Assembly (NCBI GenBank): GCA_002721705.1
Contig: PBLJ01000029.1
Span: 1 to 48,407, forward strand
Source of the DNA: Opitutia bacterium
GTDB lineage: Bacteria > Verrucomicrobiota > Verrucomicrobiia > Opitutales > Seribacteraceae
Direction of reading: 5' to 3'
Length of the DNA: 48,407 nt
In this document: positions 38,371 to 48,407 of the stretch, piece by piece
Layout: every line of letters starts with the position of its first letter
Position numbering within the stretch: the stretch's first letter is position 1
Program-made: the position numbers and the translations under genes
Notes under the pieces: generated by a model
Told to the model about the DNA's origin: nothing
The model's database searches: none
Seen by the model: the letters and a program-made list of their open reading frames with translations, nothing else

Positions 38371-39096
38371 ATGGCGAATATTTTTCCAAAGTGGTCCAAC
38401 ACCCTCCCCTTGAAGATATTGATTGGACTCACCCTCGTTGGCGGTGGCGTCTCCTGGGGCACGATGTATTACTTTTCGCCCAAGTTCTCTCGCCCCGGCT
38501 ACATGCCGGAACAGCCCGTTTCCTACGACCATAGCTTTCACGTCGGCCAACTGGGCTTGGATTGTCGCTATTGCCATAGCAACGTGGACAAGAGCCCGCA
38601 CGCCAACCTCCCCGCAGCCAGCACTTGCATGTCGTGCCATGACACGGTGCTCAAGGACTCGCCGGCCTTGGCTCTGGTCAGAGAAAGCTATTATGGCGAG
38701 GACAAAAACAGAAATCGGAAACTGGATCCGGGCGAGGACCTAAACGCGAACGACGTACTGGATGGTGGTCCTCCCGTGCCTTGGGTTCGTGTTCACAAAT
38801 CGCCGGACTATGCATATTTCAATCATGCCATCCACGTGAACCGCGGCATCAGCTGCGTGGAGTGCCATGGCGACGTCACCAAAATGAAGGAGGTTCGACA
38901 CGAGAAATCTCTCGGCATGGCCTTTTGTCTGGATTGTCACCGTAATCCCGAAAAAGCGTTGCGTCCCTTGGACAAGGTGTACGACTTGACTTGGAAACCA
39001 GATCCCGAAGATCCACATCATCTGGGACTGGGTCAGGAATTGAAGAAAAATTGGCATATTCAACCCCCAACTAGTTGCACTGGCTGTCACCGATGA
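38371..39096 (+). CDS. actA: Alternative complex III subunit ActA, pentaheme cytochrome c
   Basis: The 241-residue protein has an N-terminal membrane anchor (about 14-34) and five C-x-x-C-H heme motifs: CRYCH (65-69), CMSCH (86-90), CVECH (162-166), CLDCH (186-190) and CTGCH (236-240). The YFNHAIHVNRGISCVECHG segment is typical of ActA. The subunit receives electrons from the ActB iron-sulfur centres and passes them towards ActE or soluble cytochromes. Residues 110-133 form an insertion rich in Asp and Asn (GEDKNRNRKLDPGED, then LNANDVLDGG) that resembles EF-hand or dockerin calcium loops; family members usually have a short linker here. Its stop overlaps the actB start (ATGA at 39093). Confidence 0.95.
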   Translation: MANIFPKWSNTLPLKILIGLTLVGGGVSWGTMYYFSPKFSRPGYMPEQPVSYDHSFHVGQLGLDCRYCHSNVDKSPHANLPAASTCMSCHDTVLKDSPALALVRESYYGEDKNRNRKLDPGEDLNANDVLDGGPPVPWVRVHKSPDYAYFNHAIHVNRGISCVECHGDVTKMKEVRHEKSLGMAFCLDCHRNPEKALRPLDKVYDLTWKPDPEDPHHLGLGQELKKNWHIQPPTSCTGCHR

Positions 39097-42000
39097 AAAG
39101 CCCATCTTCAGAATCGAATGGCTCAAGCAGCCCTACCGGACCTCGTTACTGGCGAAGCTTGGATGATTTGGCCGAAACCCCGGGATTCCAAAACTGGCTT
39201 GAACGCGAATTTCCCGAAGGGGCTTCCGAGCTGGATGCTCCCGGACGCCGCAACTTCTTGAAAATCATGGCCGCGTCTTTCGGCGTTGCAGGATTGACTT
39301 TTTCCGGATGTCGCCGTCCCGAGCAGACTATCATGCCCTATGGCCGCCAACCTGAGGAAATTATTCCCGGAGTCCCGAATTACTATTCCACCTCCCTTCC
39401 AGGTTCTCGTGGCAACGTACCATTGGTCGTGGAAAGCCACCAAGCAAGACCCACGAAGGTCGAAGGCAATCCCAGCTACAAACAGTATGGAGGGGGCACC
39501 TGCGCCCATGCTCAAGCCAGTGTGCTGGATCTGTACGACCCCGACCGCGCCGCCAAGAGCCAGTCCCGGAGATCCCGCAACAACCCGAACTGGAACGCCA
39601 TGACCAAGTCCGCCCGCGACGATATCGTCGCGGAATGCGCCAAGGCCATCTCCGAGGCCTCGCCCAAAGCCAAGGTCGCTTTTCTGGCATCCTCATCAAG
39701 TTCTCCGACCAGAGCTGCCTTGGTGAAGAAATTACAAGGTAATGCCAACGTCATTTGGGCCGAACATGACGCGATCGATTTCAGTAATCCGGAACAAGCT
39801 TTGGGTAAAGTGGCACAAACCAAAAACGATGCCTACATCCGCCCCGTTCATCATTTGGCCAAGGCGAAGAGAATTTTTTCATTGGATTCCGACTTTCTCG
39901 GGATCGAGCCCGATCATCTCAGATGCAGTCGTGATTTTTCAGCAGGGCGTGACGTCGAATCCGAAAAAGACGTCGCCAAGATGAACCGACTCTACGTCGT
40001 CGAGGCAAACCTTACCTTAACTGGTTCCATGGCGGATCACCGCCTGCGACTCGAAACCTCCAGGATCACGTCTTTTGCTCGGCTCCTCGCAGCCGAAGTA
40101 TTGTCGCAGGCTGGCATCGAAGCAAAGGGGGCCGCCGTTCTTCGCAAGCATGAGAAAAGTCTCGGCATCGAGCCCAAATGGCTACAAGAGGCAGCCAAGG
40201 ACTTAGTGGAACATGCCAAGAATTCGGCATCCGTCGTCTTAGCCGGTTCTCACCTTCCGGATGAAGTCCATGCCCTGACCTTTGCCATGAATCAGGCGTT
40301 GAATGCGATTGGTAAAACGGTGGAATACGTCGAGGTCGAGCAAGGCTCGAATGCCTCCATCGAGGACTTGGCAACCGAACTGGAAGCAGGGAACGTCCAG
40401 ACCTTGATCTTCATGGAGGGCAATCCCGCCTATACCGCCCCTCGCGACTGGCCAACCCTGTTGAAAAAGGTTAAAGGCAAGGTCATTCGTTTCGGCTATT
40501 CATTGGATGAAACCAGCGATCTGGCGGACATCCATCTTGCCTCCACCCATTATTTGGAGTCTTGGTCCGACGGCTTCTCCTATGCGCAAGATTCACTATT
40601 CCCCGTCCAGCCCCTGATCCAGCCGCTTTTCGACGGCATTTCCGAATTAGACTTTCTGGCTCGCGTATTGGGCTCGAGACAAGACGCCCATGCCTTGGTC
40701 AAAGCTACTTTTGCAAGGCATTCAAAAGGTGATTTCGACAAGTTTCTCAGGGATGGAAAATCGAGCCAGAGCCCGACCAAGTTCGAGCAGCCCATCGCTT
40801 ACGAAGATCTACTTGCTTTGTCCGCAGATCAAGCCGACCCTTCCACTCTCTCCGCCGATAACTTGGACTTGGTCCTCGTCCCCAGTTTCCACAATTGGGA
40901 TGGGTCTTACGCAAACAATGGGTGGATGCAGGAATGTCCAGACCCCTTGACCAGATTGACTTGGGACAATGCAATTTTGATCAGCCCAAAGTTGGCCAAG
41001 GAACTGGAGTCTTCTTCTGGGGTTCAAATTCTCCCCAATTCGACGATGCTCAATAAAAGTGGTGTCATCGCCCCCGATACCGCGACTTTCGACTTAGGCA
41101 TGCAGAGCGCCCCTGTGGCCAAAATCAAGGTGGGAGACACGGTGGTTGAAGGACCGGTGCACGTGCAACCGGGTCTCGCCACCTATTCCATCGTCGCCTC
41201 TCTCGGATTCGGCAGGCGAAAAGTCGGCCGAGTAGGGGAGGGTACCGGATTTGACGCCTATCCTCTACTGGTGAGTGGTGAACGAATCGTTTCGGGAGCT
41301 GAACTTGATCTTAATAAAGACTTGGGCCGAATGAAATTGGCTAACGTTCAGGAACACTGGTCCATGGAAGGGCGCGCCATTATCCGTGAAGGCACCACCG
41401 AAGAGTACGCAAAGAAACCTGATTTTGTCTCCAAAATGGGAATGGAGTCTCACTCACCTCCGATCTATGGCAAGGACAAGCATCAATCCGTCAAGGAAAA
41501 GGCCCAGTCGACACCTCGAGGAGCATCTTCCTACGAACTTCCTGATCATAAGCCTGGCAAACATGGTGAAATTCTCGGTGATCATCAAGCTGATGAATAC
41601 GGCTTGCATCAATGGGGCATGGCCATCGACTTGAATCGTTGTACCGGATGCAGCAGTTGCGTCATCGCTTGCCAGAGTGAAAACAACATTCCGATCGTCG
41701 GAAAGGACCAAGTCCTGCGTGGTCGAGAAATGCATTGGATTCGCATGGATCGCTATTTCAGTTCCGAGGAACGAGAGGGCGCCGAAATCCCCGAGGACGT
41801 ACAAGTCTCGTTCCAAGGCATGTCTTGCTCCCAATGCGAAACGGCCCCCTGCGAGAGCGTTTGCCCGGTCAATGCCACGGTACACGACGAGGAAGGCTTG
41901 AATGCGATGGCCTACAATCGGTGCGTAGGCACCCGTTATTGCGCCAATAATTGCCCCTATAAAGTGCGTAGGTTCAATTTCTTCGATTGGAATAAGCGAG

Positions 42001-42578
42001 CCATCGGAGAGTTTTACGAAGGCCCGCTCGGCGACAAAAACGATCCCTTGCCTTCTCTTCAGAAAAACCCCGACGTATCCGTCAGAATGCGAGGCGTAAT
42101 GGAGAAGTGCACTTATTGCGTGCAACGAATTCAAGAGGCGAAGATACAGACCAAGATCAAGGTTCAACAGGCCAAGCAATCGGCTACCGGTCAAAGTGGA
42201 AGTGATCTAAAGCTTGATAGAGAAGAGCTTAAGGTACCAGATGGTACAATCAAGCCAGCTTGCCAGCAGTCCTGCGGATCAGATGCCATTGTTTTTGGCG
42301 ACATTTCCGATCCCGAGAGCAAGGTATCCAAGCTCAAGGCATCGAATCGCGACTATTCGGTCTTGGGCTACTTGGGTACTCGCCCCCGTACTACTTACCT
42401 CGCCAAACTCCGCAACCCGAACCCATCCATGCCAGACAAGTACTCATACTCTACGCCTCATGCGGCTGGAGAACATGACAGGCGCGCCCACAGCGGAACA
42501 GGCAGTCATGGCCATGGGGATGACCACGGGGATCATCATGAAGGTCACAAGGGCGATTCGGGAGGACACCATCGATGA
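39093..42578 (+). CDS. actB: Alternative complex III subunit ActB, molybdopterin-oxidoreductase-like plus ferredoxin domains
   Basis: The ATG at 39093 overlaps the actA stop and gives 1161 residues. The N-terminal part has [15 protein letters not shown], typical of ActB, and a Tat-like signal [20 protein letters not shown] (51-70). Next is a molybdopterin-oxidoreductase-type region (about 80-830), which in ACIII carries no molybdenum. The C-terminal ferredoxin-like part binds Fe-S clusters through Cys850, 853, 856 and 860 ([14 protein letters not shown]), [28 protein letters not shown], and later CTYC and PACQQSC. The C-terminus is His-, Gly- and Asp-rich ([18 protein letters not shown]). It passes electrons within the quinol-oxidising complex. 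Its stop overlaps actC (ATGA at 42575). Confidence 0.95.
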
Positions 42579-43993
42579 GCGCTTCCCCCAAGGAAAAAGC
42601 TGGCGCTCCCGCTGTATTTAAGAAGATACAACCGGCCGAATGGTCGGAGCCAGCTTTGGTGTCCAACGGTCGTAGTTTTGGCTGGATCACGGACAAAATA
42701 TGCGGGATCGTGGAGTCCAAGACACCGAAGTGGTGGTGGTGGTGCTTCATCGTTTGCTTGGGGATTTGCAGCTACTTGGGAGTAGGCCTTTTTTATTTGG
42801 TTTCCACAGGCGTAGGAACATGGGGATTGGCCAACCCAGTCAACTGGGGATGGGCCATCACCAACTTCGTTTTCTGGATTGGCATCGGGCATGCCGGCAC
42901 CTTGATCTCCGCTGTTTTGTGCCTGCTTAAGCAGCGATGGCGAACCTCGATCAACCGCGGAGCCGAGGCCATGACGATTTTCGCGGTAATGTGCGCAGGC
43001 ATATTTCCTCTTTTTCACGTAGGCCGTGTGTGGTTCGGATGGTGGTTGCTCCCATTACCTAACGTAAATGCCGTTTGGCCTCAATTTAGAAGCCCTCTGG
43101 AATGGGACGTGTTTGCAGTATCCACCTACTTTACGGTCTCTCTCCTTTTTTGGTACATGGGCATGGTTCCCGATTTCGGGGTTTTGCGCGACCGAGCCAA
43201 GAAAACTTGGAGGAAATACTTCTATGGAGTCCTCGCAATGGGTTGGCGCAATGCCACCAACCACTGGCGTAATTACGAAATGGCCTACCTGATCCTGGCG
43301 GGCTTGTCCACACCGCTGGTGCTTTCCGTACACACCATCGTTTCCTTCGACTTCGCCGTGGCCAATCTACCCGGTTGGCACACCACGATTTTCCCACCTT
43401 ATTTCGTTGCTGGAGCCATATTCTCGGGATTCGGCATGGTGCTGACCCTTTTGCTTCCTCTGCGATCCATCTACGGTCTGCATGACCTCATTAATCAAAA
43501 GCATATCGACAACATGTGCAAGGTGACCTTGGCCACCGGCAGCATAGTAGGATACGCCTATTCGATGGAATTTTTCATCGCATGGTATGGGGCAAATGAA
43601 TTCGAGGGATTCGCGTTCATCAATCGTGCCTTTGGAGTGTATTGGTGGGCTTACTGGATAATGATAAGCTGCAACGTTATTTGTCCGCAGTTGTTTTGGT
43701 TCCGTAAAGTGCGGGAAAACATAGCCTTGGTCTGGATCATCTCAATCTTCGTGAACGTCGGCATGTGGTTTGAGCGATTCGTGATCGTTAACACCACCCT
43801 AGCGAACGACTTTTTACCATCAAGCTGGGGCTATTACTCGCCCACGGTAGTCGATATCTTCACTTTCTTCGGAACTTTTGGATTCTTCGGGCTATTGTTC
43901 CTGCTGTTCATACGCTTCTTTCCCCTCATGCCCATGAGCGAGATTAAAGCGGTCGTACCTGAAGCTGATCCGCATGGAGGTAAGCACGAATGA
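42575..43993 (+). CDS. actC: Alternative complex III subunit ActC, NrfD-like quinol-binding membrane protein
   Basis: The 472-residue protein has about ten transmembrane helices and the NrfD/PsrC fold. Segments such as [40 protein letters not shown] and [20 protein letters not shown] are conserved in ActC. It forms the membrane core that binds menaquinol and, with ActF, is thought to provide a proton path. Its N-terminus (about 1-40) is cytoplasmic and carries a PTWS-like amphipathic part. It starts within the actB stop (ATGA) and ends within the actD start (ATGA at 43990), so translation is coupled along the operon. Confidence 0.95.
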
Positions 43994-44544
43994 GCGCCAA
44001 GCAGCAAGCGCCCGCTTACGCCTTGGCGGCTACCTTCAATTCTCCCAAGGATATTTACAAGGCGGCCGGCAAAGTCCGGGAAAAAGGATTCACGCATTGG
44101 GAATGCTACACGCCTTTCATGGTACACGGCCTCGACAAGCAAATGGGTATGCCTCGTTCGAAGGTCCCTGTCTTTACGTTCATGGGGGGAATCACGGGAT
44201 TCTTCACCGGGATGCTGATCGTTTGGTATATGAACGCATACGATTACCCGCTGATCGTTGGTGGCAAGCCTTACTTCAGCCCCATCTATCCCTTTCCAGT
44301 CTTTTACGAACTGACGATTCTGCTGGCGGCTTTCGGCACCTTTTTCGGCATGTTCCTGTCCAATAAATTGCCGCGCCACAACCATCCCGTCTTCGCATAC
44401 AGTCGTTTCGCCGAAACCTCCGACGACAAGTTCGCCTTGGTGATTGAAGCCATCGATGCGAAATTCGACGAGGACGAAACCAAGGATTTCTTGAAAAAGA
44501 TAGGTGGCAAGCGAATTACCTTGATCCGAGAGGAGGAAGGCTAG
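43990..44544 (+). CDS. actD: Alternative complex III subunit ActD (DUF3341)
   Basis: The 184-residue protein has an N-terminal cytoplasmic alpha/beta domain ([39 protein letters not shown]), two transmembrane helices (about 57-77 and 99-119) and a second cytoplasmic stretch ([20 protein letters not shown]). This is the DUF3341 layout of ActD. It is a structural membrane subunit of ACIII without cofactors. It overlaps actC by four bases and ends one base before actE. Confidence 0.94.
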
Positions 44545-44545
44545 G

Positions 44546-45616
44546 ATGAAATATTTTCTGGCCATATACGCCCTCGCGGTGGCGGCAACGATTTCGATCC
44601 TCGGCTTTCGCGGCGAAAATTCCAGAAAGCCTCCCTTGGAGATTTTTCCCGACATGGATCGTCAGCTGAAGGTTCTCGAGCAAAGCGGCAATGGTGTTTT
44701 CGCCGATGGGAGCAGTGATCGCATGCCTCCCGCTTATTCCGTGCCTCGAGGAAATGGTTTGGACCTGAAAACCGCTTTTTCGCCGGATAGTGACGCCAGG
44801 GATAAGCTCGCCGACAAAGTTTTCAATACTGGTCTCGAGGATGGGGTTGTTGGGCTCTCAGGCTTTCCCGACCAACTGGAAGTGAACGAGGAATTGATGC
44901 GTGAGGGCAAGAGCCAATACACGATTTATTGCAGTCGCTGCCACGGTGATTTGGGCAATGGCAAAGGGGTATTATCGAAATTCGGACTGAAGCCGCGTAA
45001 CTTGACCGATCCGTTGGAACCCGATTACCTCAAGCTCCCTGACCTTCCAGACGGAAAGAAGCACGGGATCGAAGGCTATGTGGTCCACGTAATCGCCGAA
45101 GGGAAGAACACCATGCTTGGCATGAAGGATCGCGTGGGTCCAAAACAACGTTGGGCAATCGCCCTTTACGTGAACGCCTTGAGGAAATGGTTGGAGTCCC
45201 GAGATAAACCCACGGCCGAGCCGGTGGCTCTGGAACAAAGTGATTCGACCAGCGAAGACCCCGCTCTCATCGCCCAAGGAAAGGCACTGTTTCAGACAAA
45301 GGTTTGCTTTACCTGTCACCAGGTTGATCCCGCTGTCCCAGCTCCCGCGGGAGGCCCTCTCAAGGCTACCAAGTTCATAGGCGAATTCTGGGGTACTTCT
45401 CGGGAAGTTCACGTGGGTATCGGTGGCCCTATCCAAAAGGTAAAGATGGACGAAGCCTATTTTCTGGAATCAGTTGAGAATCCCATGGCCAAGATCGTCA
45501 AAGGCTCCGTGGCGGGCATGGCTCCCTTGCCGACGACCCTGGAAGAACGCCAAGCATTGATGGCATACGTGAAAAGCCTGAGCAAAGCGTCTACAACCGG
45601 AGAAGAACAAGAATGA
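44546..45616 (+). CDS. actE: Alternative complex III subunit ActE with two cytochrome c domains
   Basis: The 356-residue protein begins with a signal or anchor helix (1-20) and has two C-x-x-C-H sites: CSRCH (129-133) in ActE's usual cytochrome domain and CFTCH (254-258) in a second class I cytochrome domain at the C-terminus. MPPAYSVPRGNGLDL is typical of ActE. The classic subunit from Rhodothermus marinus has one heme, so the second domain is an addition; the final helix (LEERQALMAYVKSL) is the usual C-terminal helix of a cytochrome c. The extra domain may replace a soluble cytochrome that carries electrons to the oxidase. It starts one base after actD and overlaps actF by four bases. Confidence 0.93.
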   Translation: MKYFLAIYALAVAATISILGFRGENSRKPPLEIFPDMDRQLKVLEQSGNGVFADGSSDRMPPAYSVPRGNGLDLKTAFSPDSDARDKLADKVFNTGLEDGVVGLSGFPDQLEVNEELMREGKSQYTIYCSRCHGDLGNGKGVLSKFGLKPRNLTDPLEPDYLKLPDLPDGKKHGIEGYVVHVIAEGKNTMLGMKDRVGPKQRWAIALYVNALRKWLESRDKPTAEPVALEQSDSTSEDPALIAQGKALFQTKVCFTCHQVDPAVPAPAGGPLKATKFIGEFWGTSREVHVGIGGPIQKVKMDEAYFLESVENPMAKIVKGSVAGMAPLPTTLEERQALMAYVKSLSKASTTGEEQE

Positions 45617-46914
45617 GCGCCGCGGAAGGCAAGGATGCGCACGCGGGTCTCAAGACCAAGTTTCTCGCCGCCGCCGTTGCGGGATGCACATTGGGCATGA
45701 TCGGTTTGTACATGGGAATTACCAACGACGAGCCTGACCCAAGGCCTATCTTGGGCTGGTTGCTGGGGTTGGGGTTTTGGCTCTCCATCGCGGTGGGCAT
45801 GCTCATGTTGACTATGCTCCTCAGAATCTTTCGGTCGAGCTGGGGCGTGGTGGTGCGTAGACAACTGGAACACGGTTTGCACGCGTTCCCCGTCTTGGCC
45901 GCGTGCTTCGCCCCTCTCTTGCTGATCGCTTGGTTTGGAGAAGGCCAAGCGGGCATCCTATGGCAATGGATCAATCCCGCCAACGAGTTGCCCGAATTGG
46001 TAGATGGAAGCCGCCATCACGTCAGCGAAGACATCTTGTACTTGAAGAAAAGCGGCTATTTGAACATACCTTTTTTCAGCATCCGAGCAATTATCTATTT
46101 TGGTATATTCTGTGGGTTGGCTCATTGGATGCGCAAGTGCTCCTTTGAGCAAGACAAGGACGGTTCCCCGAAATGGACGGTCTTGGGTCACCACATTTCA
46201 GCAATTGGTATTCCCGCCGCCGCCTTGGCTCTCACTTTCGCGGCTTTCGACTGGTTCATGAGCCTCGAGTACCACTGGTTCTCGACCATGTTCGGCGTAT
46301 GGTTTTTCGCCGGCTCCATGCGGGCGGGCTTGGCCGTGACCATAATCATTTGTTTCTTCCAATCCACAAGAGGTCAACTGAAGGGAATATACAACCAAGC
46401 CCACCGCTACGACTTGGCCTGCTTGAGTCTGACCTTCACGATTTTCTGGGCATACATTAGCTTTTCCCAGTATTTCCTCATTTACCAAGCGAACATACCG
46501 GAAGAAACCTTTTGGTACCAGATCAGAGAAATAAACCCCATCACCGAGGAAAAGATCACTTGGTGGTGGGTTAGCATGGGTTTGGTCTTCGGTCATTTCC
46601 TCGCCCCTTTTCTCTACCTCTTGTGGTATCGCAACAAGATCGACGTGCAACGCTTGCTGGTTGCCGCGTGTTGGATTTTGTCTTTCCACCTACTCGACAT
46701 GTATTGGAATATCCTCCCGGGAAGAGTATTGGCCGACAACAGCCTGGGCTACCTGCCACGAGAGTTTACCATATCTCATTGGGACATTGCCGCCATCATT
46801 GGGATAGGAGGCCTTTGTGGATTGCGGTATCTTCAGAGTTTAAACCAATCCGAGGTCGAAGACATACCTGTGCGTGACCCTCAAATCCTCGAGTCGATTC
46901 ACCACCATGAGTGA
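45613..46914 (+). CDS. actF: Alternative complex III subunit ActF, NrfD-like
   Basis: The 433-residue membrane protein has about ten transmembrane helices and is a paralogue of ActC. Typical segments are RRQLEHGLHAFPVLAACFAP, LTFAAFDWFMSLEYHWFSTM, FGVWFFAGSMRAGLA, YNQAHRYDLACLSLTFTIFW and ISFSQYFLIYQANIPEE. ActF makes up the second half of the ACIII membrane core. It overlaps actE by four bases (ATGA) and the next gene by eight bases (ATGAGTGA at 46907-46914). Confidence 0.95.
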   Translation: MSAAEGKDAHAGLKTKFLAAAVAGCTLGMIGLYMGITNDEPDPRPILGWLLGLGFWLSIAVGMLMLTMLLRIFRSSWGVVVRRQLEHGLHAFPVLAACFAPLLLIAWFGEGQAGILWQWINPANELPELVDGSRHHVSEDILYLKKSGYLNIPFFSIRAIIYFGIFCGLAHWMRKCSFEQDKDGSPKWTVLGHHISAIGIPAAALALTFAAFDWFMSLEYHWFSTMFGVWFFAGSMRAGLAVTIIICFFQSTRGQLKGIYNQAHRYDLACLSLTFTIFWAYISFSQYFLIYQANIPEETFWYQIREINPITEEKITWWWVSMGLVFGHFLAPFLYLLWYRNKIDVQRLLVAACWILSFHLLDMYWNILPGRVLADNSLGYLPREFTISHWDIAAIIGIGGLCGLRYLQSLNQSEVEDIPVRDPQILESIHHHE

Positions 46915-47206
46915 CCCCAAGCCAGATATCATGGACGGTTGCGGCGTCTCCTTTTGGCTGATCGTCAGCTTGTTCTTGCTGTTGCTTGTTCCGGTAGGCA
47001 TTCGCACCTGCTCCAGCTCCGAAGAAGAAATGCCGGTCGACGCGCTTACCGAACAACGACGCTCCCAAAGAATTGAGCAAGCCAAGGACGAAAACGAAGA
47101 AACACGCGAGCAATTAACCATTTCACTGGAGGAAGCTGAAGGACAAGTCCTGAGTGAAATCCAAAGCTCCGATCGCAACGCATCAGTGGAGGCAAGCAAT
47201 GAGTGA
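46907..47206 (+). CDS. Single-helix membrane protein, possible ActG-like subunit
   Basis: The ATG at 46907 gives 99 residues: a short N-terminus, one transmembrane segment (about 15-33, WLIVSLFLLLLVPVGIRTC), and a charged, Glu-rich tail (about 35-99) predicted as helical (LTEQRRSQRIEQAKDENEE). It sits between actF and the oxidase-like gene, overlapping both by eight bases with the same ATGAGTGA sequence at each junction. In Rhodothermus marinus ACIII a small single-helix subunit (ActG) follows ActF; position and topology agree, but I see no clear sequence hallmark. It could also be an assembly factor for the downstream oxidase-like subunit. Confidence 0.65.
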   Translation: MSDPKPDIMDGCGVSFWLIVSLFLLLLVPVGIRTCSSSEEEMPVDALTEQRRSQRIEQAKDENEETREQLTISLEEAEGQVLSEIQSSDRNASVEASNE

Positions 47207-48407
47207 TTCGAGCGAAAGTATCCTCGATCAATCCTTCCGAAAGTTGGCTGTCTTCTTTCTTTATTCCGGTGCCGCCTGGCTCGTTTTGGGAACGTTGCTG
47301 GCATTATTGGCGGCCACCAAGATCGTAACGCCCGCTCTCCTGAGTGAGTGGGAGTGGATGTCTTACGGGCGTTTGCGTCCCGCTTTCGTTAATGCCTTGG
47401 TTTACGGTTGGGGCGGCAATTTGGCATTTGGGGCCACGCTCTGGCTTCTGGCTCGCCTATCTTGGGCTGAAATTCCCTACCCGGGCATAGCCGTATTGAC
47501 CGGCATGTCATGGAACGGCGCCGTGTCCTTGGGTGTCATTGGTATTCTCGCTGGCCAAGGCACACCCTTCTCGTTGCTGGAAATGCCCCAGCACGTATCA
47601 ATCTTGCTTTATTGTTCGTTTTTGGGTTTAGCCGCCTGGAGCATCATAATATTCCACACTAGGCTGGAACGTGAAACCTACGTCACCCAATGGTTCGCCA
47701 TCGGCTCGCTCTTTTGGTTTGGCCTTACCTATTACTTGGGAAACTGGGGCCTATTTTGGGAACCACTTCGTGGAACCGTACAATCCGTGGCGGCCTCTTG
47801 GGTTGCTCAAAACATCCTTTGGCTCTGGTTGACGCCCGTGGCTTTCGGCATCGCATATTACCTTGTGCCGAAAACCCTTGGGGTCGCGGTGCGTGGTTAT
47901 TCCCTGGCCTTTTACGGTTTCCTTTCCCTTGCCTTGATCGCTCCGTGGACGGGGTTGGTTGAACTGCGTGGAGGTCCCGTTCCCGAATGGATACCTTCAG
48001 TTGGCTCCGTAATGGCCGTCGCCATGTTCTTTCCCGTCACCGTGTTCGCAGGAAACGTACTAGGCACTGCCTGCGGCAATTTGCAGAAGGTTTGGGACAA
48101 CGTCAGTTTACGGTTCGTGATAGCCGGCACCTTGCTTTTCACGGTGTGCGCCTATCTTGGCATTCTGTTTTCCTTTCCTAGCCTAGTATCCGTCACACAA
48201 TTCAGTCTCTTGGGTAATTTTCAGTTCAATTACCTGATACACGGTCTGTTCGGAATGGTGGCCTTTGGCTTGGCCTATTACTGGATACCTCTTTTATTCG
48301 ATGGCAGACGACCCAGCGATCTAATGGTCTCGACCCATTTTTGGGTCGCTTTCAGTGGAGTGTCCGCTTTGCTCGCCGCATCCGTTTGGGGAGGCTTTGC
48401 GGGTGGC
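47199..48407 (+). CDS. CcoN-like (cbb3 oxidase subunit I) homologue without heme/copper ligands, 3' end missing
   Basis: The frame opens at the ATG at 47199 and has no stop before the window edge, giving 403 residues with about ten transmembrane helices. It follows CcoN in order: YGRLRPAFVNALVYGWGGNL matches helix II, VAQNILWLWLTPVAFGIAYY helix VI, YGFLSLALIAPWTG helix VII, and FQFNYLIHGLFGMVAFGLAY helix X, with STHFWVAFSG after it. The metal ligands are missing: the heme b His is Phe63; the CuB ligands are Gln204, Trp250 and Thr251; the b3/b His pair is Gln342 and Asn344; and the active-site Tyr position is Leu244 (my own ungapped alignment with Pseudomonas stutzeri CcoN). Only four His are present in the visible part. 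It may be a structural subunit of an ACIII-linked complex. The gene overlaps its predecessor by eight bases. Confidence 0.8.
   Translation, partial: MSDSSESILDQSFRKLAVFFLYSGAAWLVLGTLLALLAATKIVTPALLSEWEWMSYGRLRPAFVNALVYGWGGNLAFGATLWLLARLSWAEIPYPGIAVLTGMSWNGAVSLGVIGILAGQGTPFSLLEMPQHVSILLYCSFLGLAAWSIIIFHTRLERETYVTQWFAIGSLFWFGLTYYLGNWGLFWEPLRGTVQSVAASWVAQNILWLWLTPVAFGIAYYLVPKTLGVAVRGYSLAFYGFLSLALIAPWTGLVELRGGPVPEWIPSVGSVMAVAMFFPVTVFAGNVLGTACGNLQKVWDNVSLRFVIAGTLLFTVCAYLGILFSFPSLVSVTQFSLLGNFQFNYLIHGLFGMVAFGLAYYWIPLLFDGRRPSDLMVSTHFWVAFSGVSALLAASVWGGFAGG

Follow-up and report, generated by a model that had tools for sequence, protein, structure and literature searches.

The last gene in the DNA analysed here, designated N, encodes a homologue of subunit I of the C-type (CcoN-like) heme-copper oxidases in which none of the seven catalytic residues (six His and a Tyr) is kept, although it lies within an operon for alternative complex III (ACIII). 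The window, i.e., the whole stretch of 48,407 nucleotides, comprises positions 1-48407 of a contig of 60182 bases (C22) from a draft genome of 3.5 Mb that is 89% complete. As read from the alignment, the protein almost certainly binds neither heme b, heme b3 nor CuB, cannot reduce O2 and is non-catalytic. Two facts are invisible from the window alone: the majority of the orthologues encoded in this operon have all their ligands, and a gene for an oxidase assembly protein, ccoS, goes with the ligands. The ancestor would have been the subunit I in a C-type oxygen reductase encoded by N, O and P. These genes, together with ccoS, joined the ACIII operon in the Opitutales and their relatives; this ACIII-linked terminal oxidase may then have been gutted repeatedly to a cofactor-free scaffold.

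N occupies positions 47199..48407 of the forward strand, where the window end cuts the gene. The open reading frame is genuine, and its start overlaps the stop of the small gene upstream. The full-length protein has 515 aa, with its stop at contig position 48746, and in the window's genus its C-terminus consists of an acidic linker and an extra predicted transmembrane helix that are absent from the other aligned relatives; four bases in the post-window part of the gene, in this linker and helix stretch (L002 1600-1947), read N. Profile searches match the protein to Pfam COX1 (PF00115, E=1.1e-32) and, as its nearest profile, to TIGR00780 ccoN (E=1.6e-27), where its 96.6 bits stay below the curated cut-off of 583, as do the 226.6 bits of the intact orthologue tested. 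All relatives among solved structures are CcoN. An AlphaFold2 model of the window protein (pLDDT 90.6) has its best PDB matches in CcoN (3mk7) with an rmsd of ~2 Å, CcoN is again the best match for a model of the full-length N of the genus-mate (pLDDT 85.5), and the TM values are 0.92 (query) and 0.88 (target); the input alignments contained intact orthologues, so that the models attest compatibility with the fold and are not independent proof. The relationship to CcoN proposed in the preliminary description is thus borne out by profile HMMs, PDB relatives and structure prediction. By COX1 homology and a predicted 12-helix fold, N is a C-type subunit I homologue within the heme-copper oxidase superfamily.

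What defines a heme-copper oxidase is its set of ligands, and by function N stands outside the superfamily, with 0/6 His ligands. In the ungapped alignment around the sites with orthologues that keep the motifs, F63 (47385..47387, this and the following all on the forward strand) replaces the helix II heme b His and Q204 (47808..47810) the first CuB His. The helix VII Tyr, which in C-type oxygen reductases is cross-linked and lies beside the CuB His pair, is replaced by A248 (47940..47942), and the pair itself by V254-E255 (47958..47963). The His-x-His sequence has become Q342-F343-N344 (48222..48230), with Q342 at the heme b3 His site and N344 at the second heme b His site. The preliminary description had named F63, Q204, Q342 and N344 correctly; its assignment of W250/T251 to the CuB pair and of L244 to the Tyr site was dropped in favour of V254/E255 and A248, W250 aligning with the conserved Trp of the Y-x-W-A-G-x-H-H motif, and the total loss is unchanged. 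That this first register was wrong at 3/7 positions lends something to the idea that N is an ordinary oxidase whose ligands have been misread or mis-aligned. Such an error is hardly credible: the 403 residues in the window contain just four His (132, 153, 348 and 380), all of them off the ligand positions, the motif alignment has no gaps, the N of the genus-mate also scores 0/7, and ccoS is missing.

The operon around N is a conserved array of ten genes, ActABCDEF-S1-N-O-P, and its placement within an ACIII operon, put forward in the preliminary description, is confirmed by synteny: ActA-F lie in order upstream of N, all on the forward strand. ActA (38371..39096) is the pentaheme cytochrome c of ACIII, with five CxxCH motifs and matches to Pfam cytochrome c7/c3 in addition to its synteny; ActB (39075..42578, exact start uncertain) is the large subunit with Fe-S domains (Pfam Fer4, syntenic orthologues); ActC (42575..43993) is an NrfD-like membrane subunit (PF03916, E=1.5e-22); and ActD (43990..44544) is recognised by orthologues at the same place in other loci. 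ActE (44546..45616) matches subunit E of ACIII (6f0k, 6btm) and carries at its C-terminus an additional cytochrome c domain (residues ~237-356) with a second CxxCH, similar to the cytochrome domain of a caa3 CoxII. The C-terminus of ActE matches a cytochrome oxidase subunit II (1w2l) at E=7e-4, or E=7e-5 for the C-terminal piece alone; among the compared proteins the case for a CoxII origin of this domain is marginal and rests on one PDB match, and ActE of the genus-mate (G001) lacks the domain. A second NrfD-like membrane subunit, ActF (45613..46914; synteny, phmmer matches), is followed by S1 (46907..47206), a one-helix protein of 99 aa between ActF and N that is called as an open reading frame and occurs in intact and broken lineages. 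The possibility raised earlier that a catalytic CcoN/CcoO set follows N is not realised. Beyond the window lie O, a FixO family protein (PF02433, E=1e-10) with one heme c motif, as expected of the mono-heme subunit beside N in C-type oxygen reductases, then P, a cytochrome c also with one heme c motif, and then efflux-system-like genes.

N is found in 42 of 57 relatives and in 208 of 277 order-level genomes of completeness at least 85%; a scan of named genomes places its relatives in the Opitutales, other Verrucomicrobia, the Planctomycetes and two genomes labelled Myxococcales. Where the length of the locus allows a judgement, N-O-P almost always comes after ActF, which answers the earlier question of whether homologues always adjoin actF. 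The 177 N orthologues divide into 102 with all seven residues and 75 that are broken, having lost some or all of them in 43 residue combinations with no common replacement site. The window's genus, whose only other member found is the metagenome genome Opitutia bacterium SP85, stands at 0/7, and its sister genera in the same family at 3/7. Two Opitutaceae metagenome genomes (L110, L126) are halfway, with 4/7 and ccoS retained in one and 5/7 without ccoS in the other, and possibly represent a natural intermediate of ligand loss. With the ligand columns left out of the tree and true CcoN as its root, the intact state comes out as ancestral and the supported branches require at least four independent losses, a minimum because fast-evolving rows may be drawn together. 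The lineages offer a natural stepwise series (7/7, 5/7, 4/7, 3/7 and 0/7) in which to study the passage from respiratory enzyme to scaffold.

In intact loci a FixS/CcoS gene (PF03597) lies between S1 and N. It is present in 101/102 intact loci vs. 2/73 broken ones, of which one is the 4/7 case and the other holds a degenerate copy, and Pfam FixS matches occur in 7/9 intact and 0/16 broken genomes. The gap between ActF and N measures mostly ~550 bases in intact and ~300 in broken loci. In the window genome (G000) CcoS is absent from this gap, and a Pfam FixS search of the whole genome is empty. Ligand and ccoS losses coincide in ~3.4 of 4 independent lineage pairs and never run opposite, n=4 being too small for significance. 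Insertion of b hemes into the cbb3 oxidase of R. capsulatus needs CcoS (PMC10588857), and active cbb3 requires it (PMC7558416).

A vanished active site whose replacement residues vary freely could mean that gene N is decaying and functionless, but this is highly improbable and largely refuted by the way in which the rest of the protein evolves. The median dN/dS in 28 broken pairs is 0.13 (~0.04-0.26), equal to that of intact pairs. Reading frames are intact in all 75 broken loci, the gene persists in many genera, and 44 positions are conserved at 90% or more in intact and broken classes alike. Substitution patterns of this kind indicate that broken N is under purifying selection and is no decaying pseudogene, as the preliminary description had also concluded.

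The positions that are conserved in intact N and lost in broken N cluster at the ligands and at S237, Y314 and S318, which we take to be polar residues of the K pathway (a literature search returned no published K-pathway residues). The changes of S237 to Ala and of Y314 to Phe go along with ligand loss. They bear on the suggestion that N has become a proton channel of ACIII or a module binding quinone there, in favour of which a proton input path exists in the fold of the active relatives. Such a conversion is nevertheless quite improbable: the presumed pathway residues disappear with the ligands, which weakens the proton channel, and a conservation comparison of the broken N set revealed neither a new shared metal-binding site nor a new conserved charged or quinone-type site; nothing speaks for quinone binding. 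Of the roles proposed in the preliminary description, that of a docking platform or scaffold appears to be the best fit.

On the reading preferred here, ligandless N would be retained in the membrane as a scaffold, holding the cytochromes O and P at ACIII. Electrons taken from quinol would exit the complex via ActE and be handed along the c hemes of the two cytochromes to CuA in a separate aa3 oxidase. Such a relay is moderately probable, judging by the order of the genes, the heme content of their products and co-occurrence; the physical association of N with ACIII, the electron route and the docking to aa3 are steps that we infer. The heme c motif of O is retained in 70/70 broken loci that have O, and a second heme c domain occurs in 26/70 broken vs. 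0/94 intact loci. This second domain is P-like (L054 4915-6081, L045 3257-4582), and in many broken lineages the cytochrome part of O enlarged while the active site of N disappeared. The Tyr of the O motif CxYCH, present in 91/94 intact vs. 7/70 broken loci, follows ligand loss loosely, independent pairs giving little. On the acceptor side, a CuA-bearing CoxII is found in 16/16 broken genomes tested. The sole other oxidase of the window genome is aa3, with a CoxII of 244 aa that has no heme c domain, while ActE of this genome has gained a CoxII-like one; this clue is not general, since the domain is missing from ActE of the genus-mate. The CoxII frame of the genus-mate is likewise short (238 aa). 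Against the relay, CoxII of other genera in the family carries a heme c itself, which leaves no need for an external relay there.

That broken N occurs alongside a further oxidase is a weak argument, because the majority of intact-N genomes carry a second oxidase too, and it was set aside as a main one; it is informative only in the reverse case of a genus with a single oxidase. In genus g13 (UBA7350 type; G045, G105, G158; L040), the intact ACIII-linked N is the sole COX1 protein, the operon-borne ccoS is retained, and neither CoxII nor cytochrome bd was found in the three genomes, which are 97-99% complete. As the sole terminal oxidase of three near-complete genomes, intact N very probably functions in O2 reduction. 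A further arrangement is seen in Chthoniobacterales-type loci (L082, L103, L123, L133, L134), where N is intact and aa3 genes come after N-O-P, giving two oxidases per ACIII cluster.

Ligand loss extends to the verrucomicrobial methanotrophs, taken here as the six genomes of pmoA-bearing Verrucomicrobiota, five of which contain an N homologue. Each of the five has lost the two heme b His, the His of heme b3, the first CuB His and the Tyr, and has kept a single His in the CuB pair (1/7 residues). Three loci were examined at length (N at L244 11063-12529, L245 4739-6298 and L246 6375-7847): ccoS was not detected in them, N-O-P lies in the ACIII cluster with aa3 genes directly after it, and the CoxII found in two of the three has no heme c. 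In the genome of one of these loci (G422) the remaining COX1 proteins are of A-type, B-type and NorB-like (the last by motifs), with no further C-type candidate among them. In a genome of the methanotroph group (G360), ActF and N are separated by genes for NosZ and NosD. An insertion of this kind suits a different view, in which N-O-P serves ACIII purely in structure or assembly and O and P donate to soluble cytochrome c or to another reductase, not to aa3 specifically; any structural role is compatible with the conserved synteny and the purifying selection. We regard this as unlikely, since the rise in the heme count of O in broken lineages points to flow towards aa3, and the aa3 genes directly behind N-O-P in the methanotrophs argue in the same direction.

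The relay from ACIII to aa3 on a ligandless scaffold has partial counterparts among known systems. With cbb3 (CcoNOP; 3mk7) the window shares the fold of N, a FixO-type O and a cytochrome c P, but it lacks the ligands of heme b, heme b3 and CuB, the Tyr and ccoS; moreover, P of cbb3 has two hemes and that of the window one, and cbb3 is linked to bc1, N of the window to ACIII. In Flavobacterium johnsoniae, to our knowledge, no C-type oxidase-like scaffold stands between ACIII and oxidase. The ACIII-oxidase supercomplex of this species is cited as delivering electrons to the oxidase without soluble cytochrome c (Sun et al. 2018, cited in PMC8498564), a feature that the relay proposed here would share. 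Another close system is the ACIII-linked C-type oxidase of Opitutaceae and methanotrophs, which has the same layout (Act genes, then N, O, P) and an orthologous N. It is published as an active cbb3-type enzyme, and versions with all residues do exist in most Opitutales, whereas N scores 0/7 in the window and 1/7 in the methanotrophs. The gene cluster of ACIII and C-type oxidase is already known; its repeated conversion to a cluster with a cofactor-free N was not found in the literature searched, and a search of openly licensed papers returned no report of a ligandless subunit I with ACIII. Repeated and total ligand loss under retained selection suggests a further role for the fold in respiration, one that involves no catalysis. 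Similarity-based annotation counts such ligandless N genes as high-affinity terminal oxidases.

For the methanotrophs this affects published descriptions. According to PMC8498564, which cites Refojo et al. 2010 on the point, a C-type oxidase adjoins ACIII in verrucomicrobial methanotrophs and Opitutaceae. A cbb3-type terminal oxidase is listed in papers on these methanotrophs, in several of which it stands beside ACIII (PMC6688271, PMC8498564, PMC10205796, PMC11102522), and one genome paper ties the ACIII-linked C-type oxidase to high oxygen affinity (PMC6688271). If the published "cbb3" is the N protein seen here, as we infer, the ACIII-linked enzyme of these acidophilic methanotrophs appears from its residues to be in a state similar to that of ligandless N, and conclusions on oxygen affinity drawn from "cbb3" need another look. 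Somewhat favoured is a wider reading in which the "cbb3" linked to ACIII in Methylacidiphilum and Methylacidimicrobium, an oxidase in the literature and invoked there to account for high oxygen affinity, forms one case with the protein of the window. One of the loci described above shows a nitrous-oxide reductase cluster (NosZ/NosD) between ActF and N-O-P (L246 7800-14600), and the same kind of NosZ arrangement is described for M. caldifontis IT6, where the adjoining oxidase is called cbb3 (PMC11102522).
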